A DNA stretch of 64,000 bases, taken from NCBI GenBank assembly GCA_018812925.1, contig JAHJCU010000004.1:308289-372288 (forward strand), read 5' to 3'. Below, piece by piece: positions 1 through 8,739 of the stretch (position 1 is its first letter; every line of letters begins with the position of its first letter). This stretch comes from Candidatus Omnitrophota bacterium (GTDB lineage: Bacteria; CAIJMQ01). Both the position numbers and the translations under genes were made by a program. Under the pieces are notes generated by a model, which worked only from the letters and a program-made list of their open reading frames with translations, was not told the origin of the DNA and made no database searches.

Positions 1-783
1 AGGTCGGGTTTAAGATTTTTCGAACAGGCACACATAAAAGATATTCTTTCATACATGAGAATTATAGAAAATAAAAAAGACCAAATTCCCTGGATGCGAT
101 TACTAAAACACATACCCAAAATCGGCGAAGTAACGGCAGATAAAATATACAATCAGATGGCCAATAGCTCACACCCGTTTGACCTAACCGCTGCAAAGAT
201 AGGAATATCCAAAATCGCGGAAGGCGAGCTCAACCGTTTAATCCAATTGCTGAAAAAACTCGACAACGAAAAAATGCACACGGAACCGTCTTCAATAATA
301 CAAACTATATTAAAAGACATTTATACCGCATATCTGGAAACAACTTATACCGATTGGAGTAGAAGATTGGAAGACATTCAACAACTTGCGCGATTTGCAA
401 AAACATATTCATCCTGCGCATCATTCGTGTCAGAACTGGCTTTAATGGGAGGGATAAGAGCCGAGGACATGTTCGAGTTAAAAGCCGAAGAAAAAGGTCT
501 GATACTTTCGACGGTTCATCAAGCAAAGGGTTTGGAGTGGAAAGTGGTTTTTATCATGTCGCTGGTAGAAGGATATTTCCCCTCTTATAAAGCGCAAAAC
601 GCAGAAGAAAGAGAAGAAGAAAAAAGGCTCTTTTATGTCGCTTTGACAAGAGCCAAAGACCAACTTTATCTTACCTATCCTGTCGTTTCCATGAGAAGCA
701 ATTCGCCTTGGTCTCAAAACAGTCCTTCTTCATTCTTAAGCGAAATAGACGAAGGAGCATATGAAGAATGGAGCCTGAAATAA
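1..783 (+). CDS. uvrD: UvrD/PcrA-family DNA helicase, C-terminal part (5' truncated by window)
   Basis: The reading frame is open from base 1, so only about the last 260 residues of a superfamily 1A 3'-5' helicase are present. The first codons read RSGLRFFEQAHIKD, typical of the 2A/2B domain region. Motif V is visible as STVHQAKGLEW (about nt 508-540) and motif VI as LFYVALTRAKDQL (about nt 631-670), the arginine-finger helix. These motifs belong to UvrD, PcrA and Rep helicases, which act in excision repair, mismatch repair or replication restart. The family member cannot be told from this fragment. The stop overlaps the downstream protease gene by 16 nt, suggesting co-translation. Confidence 0.93.
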   Translation, partial: RSGLRFFEQAHIKDILSYMRIIENKKDQIPWMRLLKHIPKIGEVTADKIYNQMANSSHPFDLTAAKIGISKIAEGELNRLIQLLKKLDNEKMHTEPSSIIQTILKDIYTAYLETTYTDWSRRLEDIQQLARFAKTYSSCASFVSELALMGGIRAEDMFELKAEEKGLILSTVHQAKGLEWKVVFIMSLVEGYFPSYKAQNAEEREEEKRLFYVALTRAKDQLYLTYPVVSMRSNSPWSQNSPSSFLSEIDEGAYEEWSLK

Positions 784-1892
784 AGCATCGCGAAAACATA
801 AAAGATTTTGATATGCAAACAGACAAGCTTTCTTTTGCAATAAATAAGCATTTTGCAAACGTTAAATTTATATTCCGCAAAGGACAATTCCGTTTTGAAT
901 TTAGCCATTTACTTAACGATTTCGACGCCGTCAGAAAAGATTTTGAGACGGAAAATGTGTATCCTTTTTTAAGAAAAGAAAAAGAAAAAAATATTTGCAT
1001 ATTGGCCAAAATCCCGCAAATAAAACCCGTAAAAAACAACCTTCTTATCTTTCTTTTTTTTCTGACTTTTCTTACCACAACTATGGCGGGATACTATTTT
1101 TCTTACGGTTTGGTTGAAGCAGGATATCTGAAAAACATCTGGGTTGGAGCTTTATCTTTCTCCTTAGGGCTTCTGTTAGTTTTAGGAAGTCACGAATTAG
1201 GACACAAAATCATATCAATCAAAAATAATGTTCCTGCTAATGGGCCATACTTCATACCTGTGCCTCCGTTTATTCTTCCTCTGGGGACATTGGGAGCGAT
1301 TATAAAAATCCGTTCGCCTATGCCTGATAAAAATTCACAAATTCGCCTCGGTATAGCAGGTCCTATTACGGGAATTTTCTTCAGCATAATCGTGCTTGCT
1401 ATAGGTCTTAAACTTTCATTTATTGCAACACCTGCCTTATCAGGAGAAAGTATTCAATTTGGTGAATCAATACTTTTGAGATTTTTACAGAGTATAATAT
1501 TAAAAGTTCCGGAAGGTTCAAGTCTTTACCTGCATCCGCTTGCTTTTGCGGGCTGGGTAGGACTATTCATAACTTTCTTAAATTTAATTCCCGTAGGACA
1601 ACTTGACGGGGGACATATAGCAAGAGCGATATTGGGAAGCAAAAATCATCAACGTCTGTCTTTATTTATATGCGGACTTATGTGCGCGGTGGGATTTTTA
1701 GGATTTAGAGGCTATTCTGTTTGGCCCGGATGGCTTATATGGGGACTACTCGGCTTGTTTCTTTCTCGCGGAGGCAACCCCGGCGCTATGAACGAACTAT
1801 CGCCAATAGGCAAACAGGAAAAGATATTAGCTTTAATAGCACTTATTATCTTTATATTAACCTTCATGCCAAATCCGATAAAAATAGGATAG
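768..1892 (+). CDS. Site-2 protease family (M50) membrane metalloprotease
   Basis: A 374-residue polytopic membrane protein. The zinc site HELGH is at residues 142-146 inside a transmembrane helix. The second M50 motif, with an N-L-I-P-x-x-x-L-D-G-G-H pattern, is near residue 275 and provides the third ligand. About 90 residues of soluble domain precede the first membrane helix. This layout matches bacterial site-2 proteases of the EGY1/S2P branch rather than RseP, since no PDZ domain is visible. The ATG at 768 is supported by AAGGAG at 752-757. The gene overlaps the helicase gene by 16 nt. The substrate is unknown. Confidence 0.88.
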   Translation: MEPEIKHRENIKDFDMQTDKLSFAINKHFANVKFIFRKGQFRFEFSHLLNDFDAVRKDFETENVYPFLRKEKEKNICILAKIPQIKPVKNNLLIFLFFLTFLTTTMAGYYFSYGLVEAGYLKNIWVGALSFSLGLLLVLGSHELGHKIISIKNNVPANGPYFIPVPPFILPLGTLGAIIKIRSPMPDKNSQIRLGIAGPITGIFFSIIVLAIGLKLSFIATPALSGESIQFGESILLRFLQSIILKVPEGSSLYLHPLAFAGWVGLFITFLNLIPVGQLDGGHIARAILGSKNHQRLSLFICGLMCAVGFLGFRGYSVWPGWLIWGLLGLFLSRGGNPGAMNELSPIGKQEKILALIALIIFILTFMPNPIKIG

Positions 1893-2437
1893 TAAAAATT
1901 AATGTAAATATCAAAAATTAAAATGCAAAATGACAAATCAAACATTAAATAACCAAACACCAAGATACAATAAGCAATTTCCAATACCCAATTCCTAATT
2001 TCCAATTACCAACTGTCATTGCGAGAAGCGTAGCGACGAAGCAATCTCATTTCTTTTTGTCACTCCTGTCTCTATTTTGTCATTCCCGTGAAAACGGGAA
2101 TCTAAAAAAACACCATCAGGAATTCATTCAATTTGTCATTCCCGTGAAAGTTTACCCGCCAATCTTTTAGGAGGGCGGGAATCCATTCAGTTGTCATTGC
2201 GAGCCCCGATTTATCCTCCGAAGCCTTGGCGAAGGAGGAAGGGGCGTGGCAATCTCTATGGGAGAAGCCCTATATTCTACGTGGTTCAGTAGTTGCCTCT
2301 CCTTTGTCAGAGGAATATAATACTATTAAAAGTAGAAATTCAATTACGCTAATGAAATTGCCGAAAAAAATTAAAAATAAGCAATAATCAAAATAGCCGA
2401 AGCGTTTATTAAGTGGAACAAATTGATTAAATAAACC
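1893..2437. repeat. Intergenic region packed with short repeats, no gene
   Basis: The 545-nt gap holds no credible coding sequence. It starts with a low-complexity stretch of A/C-rich words (about 1900-2015). Copies of interspersed palindromic repeats follow: one at about 2017-2049 beginning TGTCATTGCGAG and ending GCAATCTC, one at about 2078-2104 (CATTCCCGTG...CGGGAATC), one at 2135-2184, and one at about 2192-2255 again beginning TGTCATTGCGAG and ending GGCAATCTC. The mosaic resembles dispersed miniature repeat elements of uncultivated bacteria. It forms the left border of the restriction-modification module. Confidence 0.7.
2135..2184 (+). repeat. Left 50-bp inverted repeat bounding the RM module
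   Basis: The reverse complement of 5740-5789 matches this sequence at 44 of 50 positions by eye. It includes a 21-bp perfect core (2148-2168 against 5756-5776). The two copies face each other across the three-gene RM system. Confidence 0.85.
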
Positions 2438-3667
2438 ATGCAAAAACATAAACCTTTGATTGAAAAATTATTTGCGAAGAATTATCAGCTTATTGATGGG
2501 ACTGATGATGTTTTTGAATTAGATTTGGCTTTATGGGAATATGAGGTTTTATCAAAAGAAGAATTAATAAACAGAAGTGCTTATTTAAAATTAGTTGATG
2601 GAATAGAAACTGCACATTTTAAAACTTGTAATCTTCAAAATCTTGAAGAAGTTCATAAAAACAGCTCATTCAGAACAAAAGTTTTCTTTTTAGATGGTAA
2701 ATATTCTACCGGTTATGCGACACATAGTCTTTTCCCGTATCGTGGTAAATTTCACCCTCAATTAATTAGAGCTCTATTAAACATTCTTGAAATTAAGTCG
2801 GGCAATGTTGTTCTTGATCCGATGGCTGGAAGCGCAACAGTTTCGGTCGAAGCAAATTTACTTGGAATTGATTCAATTTCTGTAGATTTAAGTCCATTTT
2901 GCGGATTAATGGGTAGGGTAAAGACCTTTGCATTAGATTTAGATTTAAAAACGCTTCAATCGATTACCAATGCCCCAAAGGAATTATTGGAAAATTTAAA
3001 ACAAGAAAAAGTACCTGATTATTTTATAAACAACAAAGATGACAAAAAAAGAAGTTATTATGAAACAGTTTTATTGGCATTTTTAGATTCAATGGGTTTC
3101 GCAAGTCGAACCAGTTCTTCAATTGACAAACTTTTCCCGAGAGTATTAGAAAGATATATTTCGACAATAAAATATTTTCAAGAAGCAAGACAAGAACTAG
3201 GTTTAAAAATTGGAAAGAGTAAAATACTACAAGGCAGTGTTTTAAATCTGCCAATAGAGGACAATTCTGTTGACGTTATCATTACATCTCCACCTTATTC
3301 CTTTGCTATTGATTACTTAAAAAACGACCAACCCCAACTTGAATATCTTGGATATGATCTTGAATCTTTAAGAGAAGGAATGATCGGATTGCAAGGACAC
3401 GGTGTGGAAAACAAATTAGAAATTTACTTTGATAAAATGAATATTGCGTTAAAAGAAATGCAGAGGGTTTCAAAGAAAAATGCACCTATAATTATAATTA
3501 TCGGCACAAATAATATTCAGACAAATGGAGTGATACTTGAAACGAAAGTTATTGAACTTGCCGAAAGGCAAAATTTAAAATTTGAACTTGAATTAATAAA
3601 ACCAATAAAAGGGTTACAAAATACTATGAAAAACGAGTCGATATTATTTTTTACAAACCTAAAATAA
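2438..3667 (+). CDS. DNA methyltransferase, SPPY type (first modification gene)
   Basis: A 409-residue amino-methyltransferase. The SAM-binding motif I is DPMAGSATV (residues 127-135) and the catalytic motif IV is SPPY (284-287), so the order is I before IV. An upstream segment with YRGKFHPQLI (about 101-110) resembles the conserved lead-in of this family. SPPY is typical of N4-cytosine methylation, though N6-adenine specificity cannot be excluded. The gene ends 4 nt before the putative endonuclease gene, and all three genes run in one direction. Motif I is slightly degenerate: A replaces the usual F or C and the GxG is GSA. It presumably protects host DNA at one strand of the recognition site. 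Confidence 0.82.
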   Translation: MQKHKPLIEKLFAKNYQLIDGTDDVFELDLALWEYEVLSKEELINRSAYLKLVDGIETAHFKTCNLQNLEEVHKNSSFRTKVFFLDGKYSTGYATHSLFPYRGKFHPQLIRALLNILEIKSGNVVLDPMAGSATVSVEANLLGIDSISVDLSPFCGLMGRVKTFALDLDLKTLQSITNAPKELLENLKQEKVPDYFINNKDDKKRSYYETVLLAFLDSMGFASRTSSSIDKLFPRVLERYISTIKYFQEARQELGLKIGKSKILQGSVLNLPIEDNSVDVIITSPPYSFAIDYLKNDQPQLEYLGYDLESLREGMIGLQGHGVENKLEIYFDKMNIALKEMQRVSKKNAPIIIIIGTNNIQTNGVILETKVIELAERQNLKFELELIKPIKGLQNTMKNESILFFTNLK

Positions 3668-3671
3668 GCCC

Positions 3672-4661
3672 ATGGAAAATAACAAACCAACAACCGAATT
3701 AAAATTTAAAACTGTTGTAGACAAAAACACTTTTTATTTTTTTAATCCAGCATTTGAGGAAAAATATGAAGGTTATCTAAATTCACTAAAAGAAATTCTT
3801 CTTATTCTAAAAAATGAGATTGAAACTAAAGGATTAAAAAAGGAATTTTTTGAAAATTTATTAATAGAAAAAGAAAATGGATTGAGAGCGTTACTCGCAC
3901 TTACTGGATTTTCAAATGAAACCCTTAAAAGATTAACAACAATTATAAGGGTTGTTAATGATCCCGAATTAAGCAAATTAGTTTATAAAGATAAATGGTT
4001 TCAAGATGAGGATGTAAACAATATCAAAGAGTGGTCAGATGTTCAGATCACTAAATTTATTAAAAACAATGAGTTTTTTAGGAAAGGTGTTATAAATATT
4101 TTTTTTGAAGGTTCTACTATCCCATTTTTAATAAAAACCGTTCCTTTGTTTGAGCTAAAAAAATTAAGCATTTCAAAGCTTAAATTTGAATTACCAGAAA
4201 TGATTGATACCCTGATTCGATACAAAGAAAAAGGAAGTTATTCGGGAATGAAAGAAAACAATCCTGAAATTTTGATCGAAGGAATGTTAAATCATCTAAA
4301 CATACCTTTTGAAAAAGGCGACCTTAGCGAACTAATTGATAACGCGCCAGATAATAAACGAACGATGGATTTTATAATACCAAACAAGAAAAATCCCTTA
4401 ATCATTGCCGAAAGTTCATTTTTAGCTACTACTTCATCAGGTCAAGGTGATAAATCAAAAACGGAAATTTCTATTGACTTATTGATTAAATCGCATTATC
4501 CAAAGGCAAAATTTATTGGTTTTGTAGATGGGATTGGCTGGTATGTTAGAAAGGGCGACCTAAAAAGAATGGTAACAGCGTATGAAGACGTTTTTACTTT
4601 TCATAAAGAAGAACTGGAAAGGTTTGAAAAACTCTTAATTGATACTTTTTTAAAAAAATAA
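3672..4661 (+). CDS. Putative type II restriction endonuclease (PD-(D/E)XK-like)
   Basis: A 329-residue protein between two DNA methyltransferase genes, 4 nt after the first and 5 nt before the second. The C-terminal third carries a candidate nuclease core: D233 in TMDFIIP, then a strand ending in E247 (LIIAESSF) and a lysine-rich GQGDKSK segment. This arrangement is loosely like the DpnII/MboI group. The N-terminal 200 residues are charged and helical with no recognisable motif. The endonuclease role rests mostly on position in the cluster. The recognition sequence cannot be read from the protein. Confidence 0.6.
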   Translation: MENNKPTTELKFKTVVDKNTFYFFNPAFEEKYEGYLNSLKEILLILKNEIETKGLKKEFFENLLIEKENGLRALLALTGFSNETLKRLTTIIRVVNDPELSKLVYKDKWFQDEDVNNIKEWSDVQITKFIKNNEFFRKGVINIFFEGSTIPFLIKTVPLFELKKLSISKLKFELPEMIDTLIRYKEKGSYSGMKENNPEILIEGMLNHLNIPFEKGDLSELIDNAPDNKRTMDFIIPNKKNPLIIAESSFLATTSSGQGDKSKTEISIDLLIKSHYPKAKFIGFVDGIGWYVRKGDLKRMVTAYEDVFTFHKEELERFEKLLIDTFLKK

Positions 4662-4666
4662 TCTGT

Positions 4667-5566
4667 ATGATGGAAAAATATCTTAATAAAATTATAAAAG
4701 GCGATTGCTTAAAGGTATTAAAAGAAATACCCGACAATTCAGTTGATATGGCTTTTGCTGATCCGCCCTTTAATTTAAAGAAAAAATATAACCATTATGA
4801 AGATTCAAAAGAAAAGCAGGATTATTTGAACTGGTGTAATGATTGGATGAGTGAAATGGTAAGAATCACAAAAACAACAGGAGCAATTTTAATACATAAT
4901 ATTCCTCGTTGGCTTACTCACTATGCAGAACACTTAAATAAAATTGCTTATTTCAGGCATTGGATTTCTTGGGATTCCGGCGGTGCTCCAATGGGAAAAA
5001 CATTATTGCCTAATCATTACGGAATTTTATACTACACAAAATCTAAACCTCATAATGAGTTTAAATTTAATGATATTAGATATCCGCATCCGCGATGTAG
5101 GACGTGTAATGAATTTTTGAAGGATTACGGTGGGAAAAAAGATCAAGCGCATAGATTTGGTCCACTTCTCTCTGATGTGTGGTCGGATATTCATAGAATT
5201 CGCCATAAAAAAAGAAGAGATGAACACCCCTGCCAACTACCCGTGCCGCTCCTTGAAAGACTAGTTTTAATGACTACCGATGAAGACGATATTGTTCTTG
5301 ACCCTTTTATAGGAACTGGTACGACTGCAGTGGCAGCAAAGCAATTGGGTCGAAATTATATTGGGATAGAACTTGATCCTGATTATGTAAAAATTACTAA
5401 AAAAAATATAAAGGCAGCCAAGAAAACTAAAATAAACGGACATTATGTTTCCGTTTATCTCCGCCACATCAGAACAATGAGGGATAAGGATTTCAAGGCA
5501 ATTTGGAAAAATAAGGATGGCGATTTGAAGTTGCTTGATAAAAAGACGTATAAAATAACAAAATGA
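4667..5566 (+). CDS. DNA adenine methyltransferase, DPPF type (second modification gene)
   Basis: A 299-residue beta-class amino-methyltransferase. Catalytic motif IV is DPPF (32-35) and motif I is DPFIGTGTT (212-220), in the IV-before-I order of this class. The DPPF signature favours N6-adenine methylation. Between them are a Cys pair (C144-R-T-C147) followed by GGKK, and a conserved HRIRHKKRRDEHPCQLP block that probably belongs to target recognition. It starts 5 nt after the endonuclease gene. With the SPPY enzyme upstream, it gives one system two methyltransferases of different chemistry, as in type IIS systems with asymmetric sites. Confidence 0.85.
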   Translation: MMEKYLNKIIKGDCLKVLKEIPDNSVDMAFADPPFNLKKKYNHYEDSKEKQDYLNWCNDWMSEMVRITKTTGAILIHNIPRWLTHYAEHLNKIAYFRHWISWDSGGAPMGKTLLPNHYGILYYTKSKPHNEFKFNDIRYPHPRCRTCNEFLKDYGGKKDQAHRFGPLLSDVWSDIHRIRHKKRRDEHPCQLPVPLLERLVLMTTDEDDIVLDPFIGTGTTAVAAKQLGRNYIGIELDPDYVKITKKNIKAAKKTKINGHYVSVYLRHIRTMRDKDFKAIWKNKDGDLKLLDKKTYKITK

Positions 5567-5889
5567 TTATGAATCATGATATTCAATCATAACTCGATAG
5601 ATCTAAAGAATGACTAATAGAAATAGAAAATGCTTGCAATACTGACCTACGAGCAAAGGATGTAAAAAAATAGGTATACATCCCATTTATAAAACAGCAT
5701 CCACTCTCCCCCCCTCCACAAAAGTAATTTAATATCATTGGATTCCTGCCCTCCCAAAAGATTGGCGGGTAAACTTACGCAAGAATGACAAAAGAGCGGG
5801 GATGACAAGAGAAAGAGCAATGGCAAAATGATAGAATATCAGTAGATATTTTCTGGGAATGGATATTAGACATTTCATCATAAATTAAC
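5567..5889. repeat. Intergenic region with right border repeat of the RM module
   Basis: No gene is visible in this 323-nt gap. It contains the right 50-bp repeat (5740-5789) followed by a short partial copy (about 5795-5810, ending GGGGATGACAAG). The rest is AT-rich sequence with no clear promoter. There is no good Shine-Dalgarno sequence ahead of waaA. Confidence 0.6.
5740..5789 (-). repeat. Right 50-bp inverted repeat bounding the RM module
   Basis: Read on the minus strand it matches 2135-2184 at 44 of 50 bases, with a perfect 21-bp core at 5756-5776. Together the pair encloses about 3.6 kb that contains only the RM genes. Confidence 0.85.
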
Positions 5890-7179
5890 ATGATATATTT
5901 TCTATACAATTTATTATTATTTTTTGCATCTCCTTTTTATATCATAAGAGTTTTATGGAAAAACGGAGGATTTAAGGAGAGATTTGGAATTCTCGCCCTA
6001 AATCGTCCGATGTCACATCGGACTGGTATGAGGCAAGCCCAGAATCAAAATAAAAAAATCATCTGGATCCACGCCGTATCCGTAGGTGAAGTTATAGCTT
6101 CCAAACCTTTAATTTCTCTTATTAATAAAGAACTCCCAAATTATGAGGTAGTGCTTTCTACAATCACAAAAACAGGCAGACAAATGGCAAAAAAACTCAC
6201 AGAGAAAATCTCTTATATATTTTATTTCCCTTTTGATTTTGCCTTCGTAATAAAAAAAGTATTAAGAAAGATTAATCCTTCCTTAATCGTCATTACCGAA
6301 ACCGAAATTTGGCCTAACCTATTAAGATACTCAAAATATTTTAATATTCCCCTTGTCTTAAATAATGGAAAAATCTCTGAAACTTCTTTTTCAAGATATA
6401 AAAAAATCCGACCGCTTATAAAACAGATATTAAATAATATTTCTATCTTCTGCATGCAGACGGAAGAAGATAAAAATAAATTGATTCAATTGGGAATAAG
6501 TCCTGGAAAAATAACCGTTACGGGAAACACCAAGTTCGATTTATTTAATGTCTCTTCAGAAAAAGAACCACCGCTTAAAAATTGGAATATAGAAGGTGTA
6601 TCACCTGTCATAGTTGCGGGAAGCACTCATCCAAAAGAAGAAGAAGCAATACTTGAGGCTTTTAAGGAAATAATCAAAAAATTTTCAGAAGCAATTTTAA
6701 TATTAGTCCCAAGACATCCCGAAAGAACGCCCGAAATAGAAAATTTAATCAAAGAAAAGGGGTATTCGCATATAAGAAGAACCAAGATGAATTCTTCCAA
6801 AGTAAAAGAAAAAATAATTCTCATAGACGTTATCGGGGAATTGTCTAAAATTTATTCAGTCGCAGACATTGTCTTTGTAGGCGGTAGTCTTATTCCAATA
6901 GGCGGACACAATCTTCTTGAACCTGCGTTCTTGTCCAAACCGATTATTACAGGACCGCATACTTTCAAGCAAAAGGATATGGTGGAACTGCTCAAGAAAG
7001 GCAGAGGCTTGATACAGGTAGCAAACGACGAGCAATTAAAAAAGGAATTAATTGACTTATTATCTTCTCCCGATAAGAGAAAAAAATTAGGCGAGAACGC
7101 ATATAATACGGCAATGTCCAATCAAGGAGCTGGAAGAAAAAACTTTGAAGCGATTGAAAAAAATCTGCATAAGTTCTAA
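5890..7179 (+). CDS. waaA: 3-deoxy-D-manno-octulosonic acid (KDO) transferase
   Basis: A 429-residue family 30 glycosyltransferase that adds KDO to lipid IVA at the inner membrane, the first step of LPS core assembly. It has an N-terminal membrane anchor (1-22). The WIHAVSVGEV motif holds the catalytic Glu, and the acceptor loop TETEIWPNLL and a C-terminal GGSLIPIGGHNLLEPA donor site are present. Residues about 38-52 are not typical of the family. They contain a perfect 9-bp palindrome at 6005-6023, so a small repeat appears to have entered the gene in frame. This gene argues for a diderm with LPS. It is followed by argC after 12 nt. Confidence 0.93.
   Translation: MIYFLYNLLLFFASPFYIIRVLWKNGGFKERFGILALNRPMSHRTGMRQAQNQNKKIIWIHAVSVGEVIASKPLISLINKELPNYEVVLSTITKTGRQMAKKLTEKISYIFYFPFDFAFVIKKVLRKINPSLIVITETEIWPNLLRYSKYFNIPLVLNNGKISETSFSRYKKIRPLIKQILNNISIFCMQTEEDKNKLIQLGISPGKITVTGNTKFDLFNVSSEKEPPLKNWNIEGVSPVIVAGSTHPKEEEAILEAFKEIIKKFSEAILILVPRHPERTPEIENLIKEKGYSHIRRTKMNSSKVKEKIILIDVIGELSKIYSVADIVFVGGSLIPIGGHNLLEPAFLSKPIITGPHTFKQKDMVELLKKGRGLIQVANDEQLKKELIDLLSSPDKRKKLGENAYNTAMSNQGAGRKNFEAIEKNLHKF
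6005..6023. repeat. Palindrome inside waaA coding sequence
   Basis: GTCCGATGT and ACATCGGAC form perfect 9-nt arms around a single central base. The site encodes a variable loop (residues about 38-45) absent from typical WaaA proteins. Confidence 0.6.
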
Positions 7180-7191
7180 TATATCGGCATT

Positions 7192-8244
7192 ATGATAAAA
7201 ATAGGAATAGTCGGGGCGACAGGTTATACAGGAGCGGAGCTGGTTAGAATATTAATCAATCATCCGCAAGTAGAGATTACCTCGCTAACGGCAAAGATTG
7301 AGAAGAGCCAACCTTTCTCTGAAATCTTTCCACACTTCAAAGGCATGCTTGCCTCGCCGACAGGCGGGTTTGATATGCAGTGCGAGATTTTTGAGAATGT
7401 GAAACAAGTAGCCGATAAAGTTGATTTGGTATTTCTTGCGGTTCCTCATACTGTAGCTTTAAAACTTGTACTCGAATTTTTAGAAAAAGGGATAAAAGTC
7501 ATAGACCTGTCGGCTGATTACAGATTTGACAGCGCACAAATTTACGAGAAATGGTATGAGATAAAACATACTCATTCCGAGTTACTAAAAGAAAAAGTAT
7601 ACGGTCTGCCGGAACTTTACAGAGAGAAAATTAAAAAAGCGAAGCTTATTGCAAATCCGGGATGTTATCCCACATCCGTAATACTTGGCGCTTACCCGCT
7701 GGTAAAAATGGGGCTCGTTAATGAAGTATTAGTAAATTCTTTATCAGGAGTATCCGGCGCAGGAAGAAGCGCTAACCTATCTTTGATATTTCCCGAAATA
7801 GAAGGAAATGTAAAAGCATATAAAGTTGGAACTCACAGACACCAACCGGAAATGGCGGAACAACTTTCCAAAGCAGCCGGTTCAAATATAAAAGTGACTT
7901 TTGTTCCTCATCTTGTGCCTGTATCAAGAGGAATACTTACCACTATGTATATAAAACTCAATAAGCCAGCTGACAGAAATAAAATATGGGCAAAATATCA
8001 GGAAGCTTATAAAAACGAACCTTTTGTTCAACTACTTCCCGAAGGAGAAAATCCGCAGGTAAAATTGGTAAGAGGAACAAATAACTGCCAGATATCGGTC
8101 AGCGTTAAAGACGATTTGGCAATCGTAATAACAGCAATAGACAACCTCATCAAAGGCGCATCGGGACAAGCAATTCAGAATATGAATTTAATGTATGGGT
8201 GGGATGAAACAGAAGGGCTACTTATCACACCTATTTACCCTTAA
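7192..8244 (+). CDS. argC: N-acetyl-gamma-glutamyl-phosphate reductase
   Basis: A 350-residue NADPH-dependent reductase of arginine biosynthesis. The N-terminal Rossmann motif is GIVGATGYTGAELVRIL. The catalytic cysteine lies in ANPGCYPTSV, and the GVSGAGR and HRHQPEM segments are family hallmarks. A short stretch near residues 54-63 (ASPTGGFDMQ) is longer than in relatives and is encoded by a GC-richer patch (about 7351-7368) with a CGCC/GGCG dyad, possibly another small insertion. The gene sits 12 nt after waaA and 6 nt before leuD, an amino-acid biosynthesis run. No other arg genes are present here. Confidence 0.95.
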   Translation: MIKIGIVGATGYTGAELVRILINHPQVEITSLTAKIEKSQPFSEIFPHFKGMLASPTGGFDMQCEIFENVKQVADKVDLVFLAVPHTVALKLVLEFLEKGIKVIDLSADYRFDSAQIYEKWYEIKHTHSELLKEKVYGLPELYREKIKKAKLIANPGCYPTSVILGAYPLVKMGLVNEVLVNSLSGVSGAGRSANLSLIFPEIEGNVKAYKVGTHRHQPEMAEQLSKAAGSNIKVTFVPHLVPVSRGILTTMYIKLNKPADRNKIWAKYQEAYKNEPFVQLLPEGENPQVKLVRGTNNCQISVSVKDDLAIVITAIDNLIKGASGQAIQNMNLMYGWDETEGLLITPIYP

Positions 8245-8250
8245 AAACAA

Positions 8251-8739
8251 ATGGGAAAAACATATAAATTCGCAGACAATATATCCACAGACCATATTAT
8301 TCCGGGTAAATACTATCATTTAAGAAGCAATCTGCCGGAATTAGCAAAACACGTAATGGAAGATGCTGACCCCGAATTCACTCAAAATATGAAAGAAGGT
8401 GATTTTATTGTTGGGGGAAGAAATTTCGGATGCGGTTCTTCAAGAGAACATGCGCCACTCATTATGAAAATCAGAGGCGTACAAGCTGTTCTTGCTAAAT
8501 CTTTTGCAAGAATATTCTACCGCAACGCAATAAATATCGGACTGCCGGCAATTGAATGCGACACCGATAAAATAAAAGAAGGCGATGAATTGGAACTAGT
8601 TCTGGATAAAGGAATAATTTTAGACAAAACTACAGGGGAAGAAATAACATTCAAAGCGCTATCCCCGTTAATGCAGAAAATCCTAAACGAAGGCGGAGTG
8701 GTAAACTACGTTAGGAAATATAAAGACCTGCCGACCTAA
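8251..8739 (+). CDS. leuD: 3-isopropylmalate dehydratase small subunit (LeuD/HacB type)
   Basis: A 162-residue swivel-domain subunit of the short LeuD type. The [12 protein letters not shown] start and the [14 protein letters not shown] signature (about residues 56-69) are characteristic. It partners with LeuC, which carries the 4Fe-4S cluster, to isomerise 2- and 3-isopropylmalate in leucine synthesis. Homoaconitase small subunits share this fold, so the exact substrate depends on the partner, which is not in this window. It follows argC by 6 nt and is probably co-transcribed with it. Confidence 0.9.

Follow-up and report, generated by a model that had tools for sequence, protein, structure and literature searches.

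The analyzed window, a stretch of 64,000 nucleotides from a Candidatus Omnitrophota bacterium, contains a group of three genes placed between a site-2 (M50) peptidase gene and kdtA, and bracketed by two 50-bp repeats (50-mers) in inverted orientation (Table 1). In methyltransferase 1, a motif I-like DPMAGS precedes TSPPY. Methyltransferase 2 presents a DPPF motif followed by DPFIGTGTT, is of the beta-class N6-adenine type, and is related to MboIIA (PDB entry 1g60). The C-terminal part of the endonuclease is weakly DpnII-like, its PF04556 match of 22.8 bits lying slightly below the 23-bit cut-off, and no relative of this protein was found by sequence in the PDB. The endonuclease gene is linked here to the methyltransferase genes, and the same three-gene linkage was observed in most homologous loci. 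As judged from their sequences, the enclosed genes form a complete type II RM system with two methyltransferases and one endonuclease. It should act as an ordinary restriction system, in which the endonuclease would cut unmethylated DNA and the two methylases would shield the host site.

Table 1. Features of the M50-kdtA region, in window coordinates.
Feature	Position	Strand	Remarks
Site-2 (M50) peptidase, conserved left neighbour	768..1892	+	Pfam PF02163
DNA without alignable G001 counterpart	1901..5823		BLASTN against G001:C43
REP-like element, second repeat type, GTCATTGCGAG...GCAATCTCA	2013..2048	+	Sequence, pattern; related copy at G000:C4:21652
REP element GTCATTCCCGTGAAAACGGGAATCT	2079..2103	+	Fits dRS3 pattern ATTCCC(N8)GGGAAT exactly
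Left 50-mer	2135..2184	+	REP with enlarged loop
REP-like element GTCATTGCGAG...GGCAATCTC, long loop	2191..2258	+	Sequence, pattern; weak fold
DNA methyltransferase 1	2438..3667	+	409 aa; PF01555; PADLOC MTase_II
Type II restriction endonuclease	3672..4661	+	329 aa; PF04556; REase_II
DNA methyltransferase 2	4667..5566	+	299 aa; PF01555, 170 bits
Right 50-mer	5740..5789	-	REP with enlarged loop; inverted relative to left 50-mer
Right edge, 65-bp intergenic block common to RM-less G001 allele	5824..5888		92% to G001:C43:3166-3231
kdtA (Kdo transferase), conserved right neighbour	5890..7179	+	PF04413; beside M50 in G001 and G003

The initial annotation had described the 50-mers as inverted copies identical at 44 of 50 positions. 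This count was confirmed, and the match can even be extended to 48 of 54 positions (2132-2185 versus 5739-5792). It had also described the enclosed content correctly, as the ORFs found between the repeats (2438-5566) are those of the two methyltransferases and the endonuclease, with no recombinase among them. Both 50-mers have kept GTCATTC at one end and GGAATCCA at the opposite end, and both show the ATTCCC...GGGAAT inverted core with a GTC tag and a CC(A) tail, in a degenerate form in the right copy (ATTCTTG...CAGGAAT). Their folds are weak (z of -1.9 and -0.5), owing to the enlarged loop. The genome (1.47 Mb) contains only two exact occurrences of the 18-bp core TTTACCCGCCAATCTTTT, one in each 50-mer, and a DNA search of the whole genome with the region returned these two copies only. 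Since this subtype is limited to 2 copies genome-wide, its abundance cannot account for the facing pair.

The 50-mers have company at the locus. The left spacer harbors about four REP-like elements of two types, and the hairpin of the element at 2079-2103 folds strongly (-7.8 kcal/mol, z -4.8). The strict pattern GTCATTCYYG...RGGAATC was found 5 times in this genome (G000), 50 times in the same-genus genome G001, 78 times in G004 and 32 times in G005, with no occurrence in G002, G003 and G006; the reversed-pattern control gave 0 in all genomes. This genome is REP-poor, its 5 strict elements being located at two places, with 3 of them at the RM locus. When one mismatch at most was accepted, the core of the 50-mers gave 5 matches in G001, 4 of which were in elements reading as variants of the 50-mer. 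REP sites lie between ORFs. In G001 they are clustered, 32 of 49 having a neighbour within 4 kb versus 12.7 expected, and 10 of the 22 adjacent pairs are in opposite orientation. Most of the G001 sites are beside housekeeping genes, such as pdxA, nadE, rpoN, murD, dprA, pheS, pheT and gatB.

Moreover, the closest copy of the left 50-mer is located on contig C81 of G001, with 2 differences, versus 6 between the left 50-mer and its own partner; the right 50-mer shows 4 differences from this same C81 copy. By this comparison, the two 50-mers of the window are not specially matched to each other, and we assign them to a dispersed CGTC-type (dRS3-like) REP family of the genus, as members with an enlarged loop. 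CGTC-type REPs include the dRS3 of Neisseria, and this REP family has been described with frequent pairs in opposite orientation (PMC3733652), with which the pairs of G001 agree; the dRS3 pattern is ATTCCC(N8)GGGAAT (PMC3898611). A literature text search with the repeat sequence returned no paper on this repeat. A viral origin of the core was considered from two matches in viral contigs, which have no flanking palindrome and look coincidental. Another REP copy of this genome (G000:C11:449360-449383, core ATTCCCGCCTACGCGGGAAT) fits the subtype of dRS3 targeted by the Nf1 phage (motif in PMC3898611).

Two of these genomes provided the locus without RM genes. BLASTN homology with contig C43 of G001 ends at 1900 and restarts at 5824, an interval of 3.9 kb in the window versus about 50 bp in G001. 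The M50 peptidase is 98% identical (amino acids) to that of G001, where kdtA adjoins it, and the two genes are directly neighbouring and RM-less in both G001 and the same-family genome G003. The bin of G002 is incomplete and misses the M50/kdtA region, so that the same-genus alleles read are those of this genome and G001. The same two conserved genes therefore enclose different contents: the RM system here, about 275 bp with other repeats in G001, and a spacer of about 18 bp in G003. Also, the endonuclease is absent from all of the 59 other genomes searched, which included sampled relatives of the class. The initial annotation had proposed to look for an empty site, and had considered its reading refuted if the repeat were so abundant that facing pairs at this distance are expected by chance and no RM-less allele existed. 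An RM-less locus was indeed found in a same-genus and a same-family genome and the subtype has two copies, even though the empty site is not perfectly clean, as the edges are defined against G001, whose spacer has changed in its own ways. DNA identity to G001 is 96% to the left of the locus and 86% to its right; other regions range from 85% to 97%, and this variable background weakens the step in identity as a proof of recombination. Farther along the window, argC and leuD are adjacent (8244-8251), and G003 has about 5 kb between them; G001 also has part of this G003 DNA following argC, an arrangement suggestive of a deletion in this genome.

Homologues of the RM system were found in very different hosts. 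Close relatives of the endonuclease, 90-94% identical, belong to Desulfaltia, Altiarchaeales and several Patescibacteria. We kept 80 relatives from genomes, and flanks were compared among 52 RM loci having both of them, the window included. At the DNA level, the closest loci are homologous only over 2422-5563, i.e., the three genes, and none of the fetched homologous RM loci contains the core of the 50-mer. A repeat borne by the RM system itself is not retained, as these homologues are devoid of the 50-mer. Likewise, we find it highly improbable that the 50-mers belong to the RM unit as, e.g., hairpins for its regulation or terminators on which it depends. It is plausible that such palindromic elements are transcribed and function at the RNA level (PMC3733652), but homology with the closest relatives stops short of the repeats, the other loci do without the 50-mer, and the two other clear inverted pairs seen around this RM system are of different sequence. 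The first one, in a Moranbacteria MAG (L074), is a 115-bp inverted repeat with 98% identity (39-153 / 3737-3849) located near a contig end; the second one, in Chlamydiales (L120), is a 33-bp pair. Besides these, only a weak pair was detected, in L146. The repeats of L074 and L120, which do not read like the 50-mer, may belong to palindromic families of their own hosts. In L074, a gene for an HTH regulator lies upstream of the RM genes. In a Desulfamplus MAG (L079), the RM system has a complete pilD-like gene on one side and, on the other, a direct copy of the 3' part of this gene (457 bp, 98% identity; 4122-4578 and 8206-8662). This arrangement looks like an insertion with a long target duplication, a route described for RM systems (PMC3874152). 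A plasmid origin of the RM system was also considered and not retained, no match to the endonuclease being found in 72,556 plasmid records.

G001 also carries a facing pair of the 50-mer subtype, on contig C38 (L178:2103-9850; copies at 2103+ and 9801-). It brackets an AlwI-like RM island that is unrelated to the RM system of the window, and that is composed of a nucleotidyltransferase/HepT-type toxin-antitoxin pair, a NucS-like protein, a RadC-D12 methylase fusion, the AlwI-like endonuclease, a further methylase and a DUF559 protein. No target duplication was found at this pair, and its left copy shows 2 differences from a copy on contig C99 versus 4 from its partner. The island adjoins an isocitrate-dehydrogenase-like gene, next to which G002 has a short spacer; at the same site, this genome carries a different insertion of ~17 kb with helicase and N6 methylase genes (G000:C11, about 555834-572595; L221, L224). 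Contig C81 of G001 (L180:14-6369) encodes a DNA methylase, a SMODS (CBASS-type) synthase and a SLATT-like protein; five REPs are arrayed after these genes, among them the copy closest to the left 50-mer. Judging by gene content, one and the same site in this genus holds different defence islands depending on the species, and some such sites have REPs. The association between REP pairs and defence genes is nevertheless suggestive only, with two cases and most REP sites elsewhere. REPs as specific markers of defence genes are not supported, most of the G001 sites bordering housekeeping genes.

These data bear on the two options left by the initial annotation, namely a mobile cassette moved by a trans-acting enzyme or an insertion between pre-existing repeats. 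According to the first one, the 50-mers would be the functional ends of a non-autonomous RM cassette, moved in trans by a RAYT or by a dRS3-type recombinase like that proposed for the Neisseria Nf1 phage. The layout invites this reading, with only two copies in the genome, facing each other around exactly one RM system, and with the pair on C38 around a different RM island. However, the edges of the insert defined against G001 do not coincide with the repeats (1900/1901 and 5823/5824, versus 2135 and 5789) and lie outside them, by 234 bp on the left and 34 bp on the right. RM units with imperfect terminal inverted repeats have been reported together with short target duplications (Furuta et al. 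2010, to the extent summarised in PMC3874152), but neither the window pair, between the outer flanks ...CATTCAATTT and AAAAGAGCGG, nor the C38 pair shows a target duplication, and each pair includes a copy that resembles a non-partner more closely than its own partner. As for the enzyme, an integrase of the Nf1 phage has been proposed to target dRS3, possibly causing gene insertions between dRS3 copies (PMC3898611), and because of this proposal a trans-acting enzyme for the REP pair is conceivable by analogy. Against it, no dedicated transposase is known for CGTC REPs (PMC3733652), and no Y1 (RAYT-type) transposase (PF01797) was detected in this genome, which is 92% complete; 4 matches were obtained in G001 and 2 in G002. 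Finally, the fetched homologous RM loci lack the repeat core and rarely hold any inverted pair in their flanks. We thus regard 50-mers acting as cassette ends as quite unlikely, and this half of the earlier proposal is not upheld. That an insertion took place is supported by the RM-less locus of G001 and G003 and by the absence of the endonuclease from the 59 other genomes. Of the two options, the other half of the proposal, an insertion between or into pre-existing repeats, is the better one.

Altogether, we consider it probable that the type II RM system was acquired horizontally and sits within an intergenic REP array of the CGTC (dRS3-like) type, at a variable site between M50 and kdtA, and that the 50-mers are separate members of the family rather than the ends of a transposable unit. 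This reading is based on the RM-less locus in relatives, the dispersed repeats and the insert edges located off the repeats. The RM genes could have entered a REP array already in place, or have come together with a REP array from a REP-rich relative. Entry would have occurred by homologous or illegitimate recombination via flanking DNA or the REP sequence itself, in the style of minimal mobile elements. An arrival of the RM system alone, with repeats playing no role and REPs accumulating later in the intergenic DNA newly created to its left and right, is unlikely in our opinion. It would agree with the presence of the family in ordinary intergenic spaces and with the several elements of two types in the left spacer, but the genome is REP-poor and the rare subtype has its two copies here, so that the import of a REP-bearing block fits better than two later local insertions.

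Some observations also count against the reading of an RM system inside a REP array. The 50-mer subtype is found only at the RM system in this REP-poor genome, and two independent random placements are therefore unlikely. Also, the AlwI-like island of G001 is enclosed by the same facing subtype, and the contig of the C81 copy carries a CBASS-type synthase and a DNA methylase. One may imagine that facing pairs of enlarged-loop dRS3-like REPs are exchange points for defence genes in this genus, where RM cassettes are swapped by recombination or by a trans-acting recombinase recognising the REPs. This would explain why two unrelated RM systems, in two species, lie between facing copies of the same subtype. 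We hold it to be very unlikely. If it were true, a part in the turnover of defence genes would fall to CGTC-type REPs, for which no mobiliser is known.

RM systems spread widely with no mobility genes in sight, and their entry into chromosomes is understood in part. The present family adds to this picture, as it occurs in very different hosts, one of which (Desulfamplus) shows a direct 457-bp duplication of the target gene. Our data also provide a practical lesson: flanking repeats should be checked against the repeat families of the host itself before they are called cassette ends.

Compared with known systems, the elements described here share with CGTC REPs and the dRS3 of Neisseria the GTC-ATTCCCG...CGGGAAT palindrome and a CCA-type tail, as well as an intergenic, clustered distribution in which neighbours often face opposite directions. 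The 50-mers differ from short-form CGTC REPs and dRS3 by a loop enlarged to about 34 nt, with internal CCGCC/GGCGG pairing, by a weaker fold than that of the short forms, and by a TGTC tag instead of CGTC. RAYT-mobilised REPs (REPtron/REPIN) rely on a Y1 tyrosine transposase, whereas this genome has no PF01797 match. As far as the summary in PMC3874152 describes them, the RM units of Furuta et al. (2010) resemble the locus by their RM genes placed between imperfect inverted repeats, with no transposase; here, in contrast, no target duplication is present and the insert edges are off the repeats. In Neisseria, minimal mobile elements are cassettes of whole genes that lie between conserved genes and are taken up through homologous recombination (PMC3898611). 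The locus is similar to them in its alternative content between two conserved genes and its foreign cargo devoid of recombinase, and differs in that only three alleles were observed and that exchange by homologous recombination is here a putative route. The case is thereby largely ordinary, being composed of known kinds: a type II RM system, an array of CGTC-type REPs and a site resembling a minimal mobile element.
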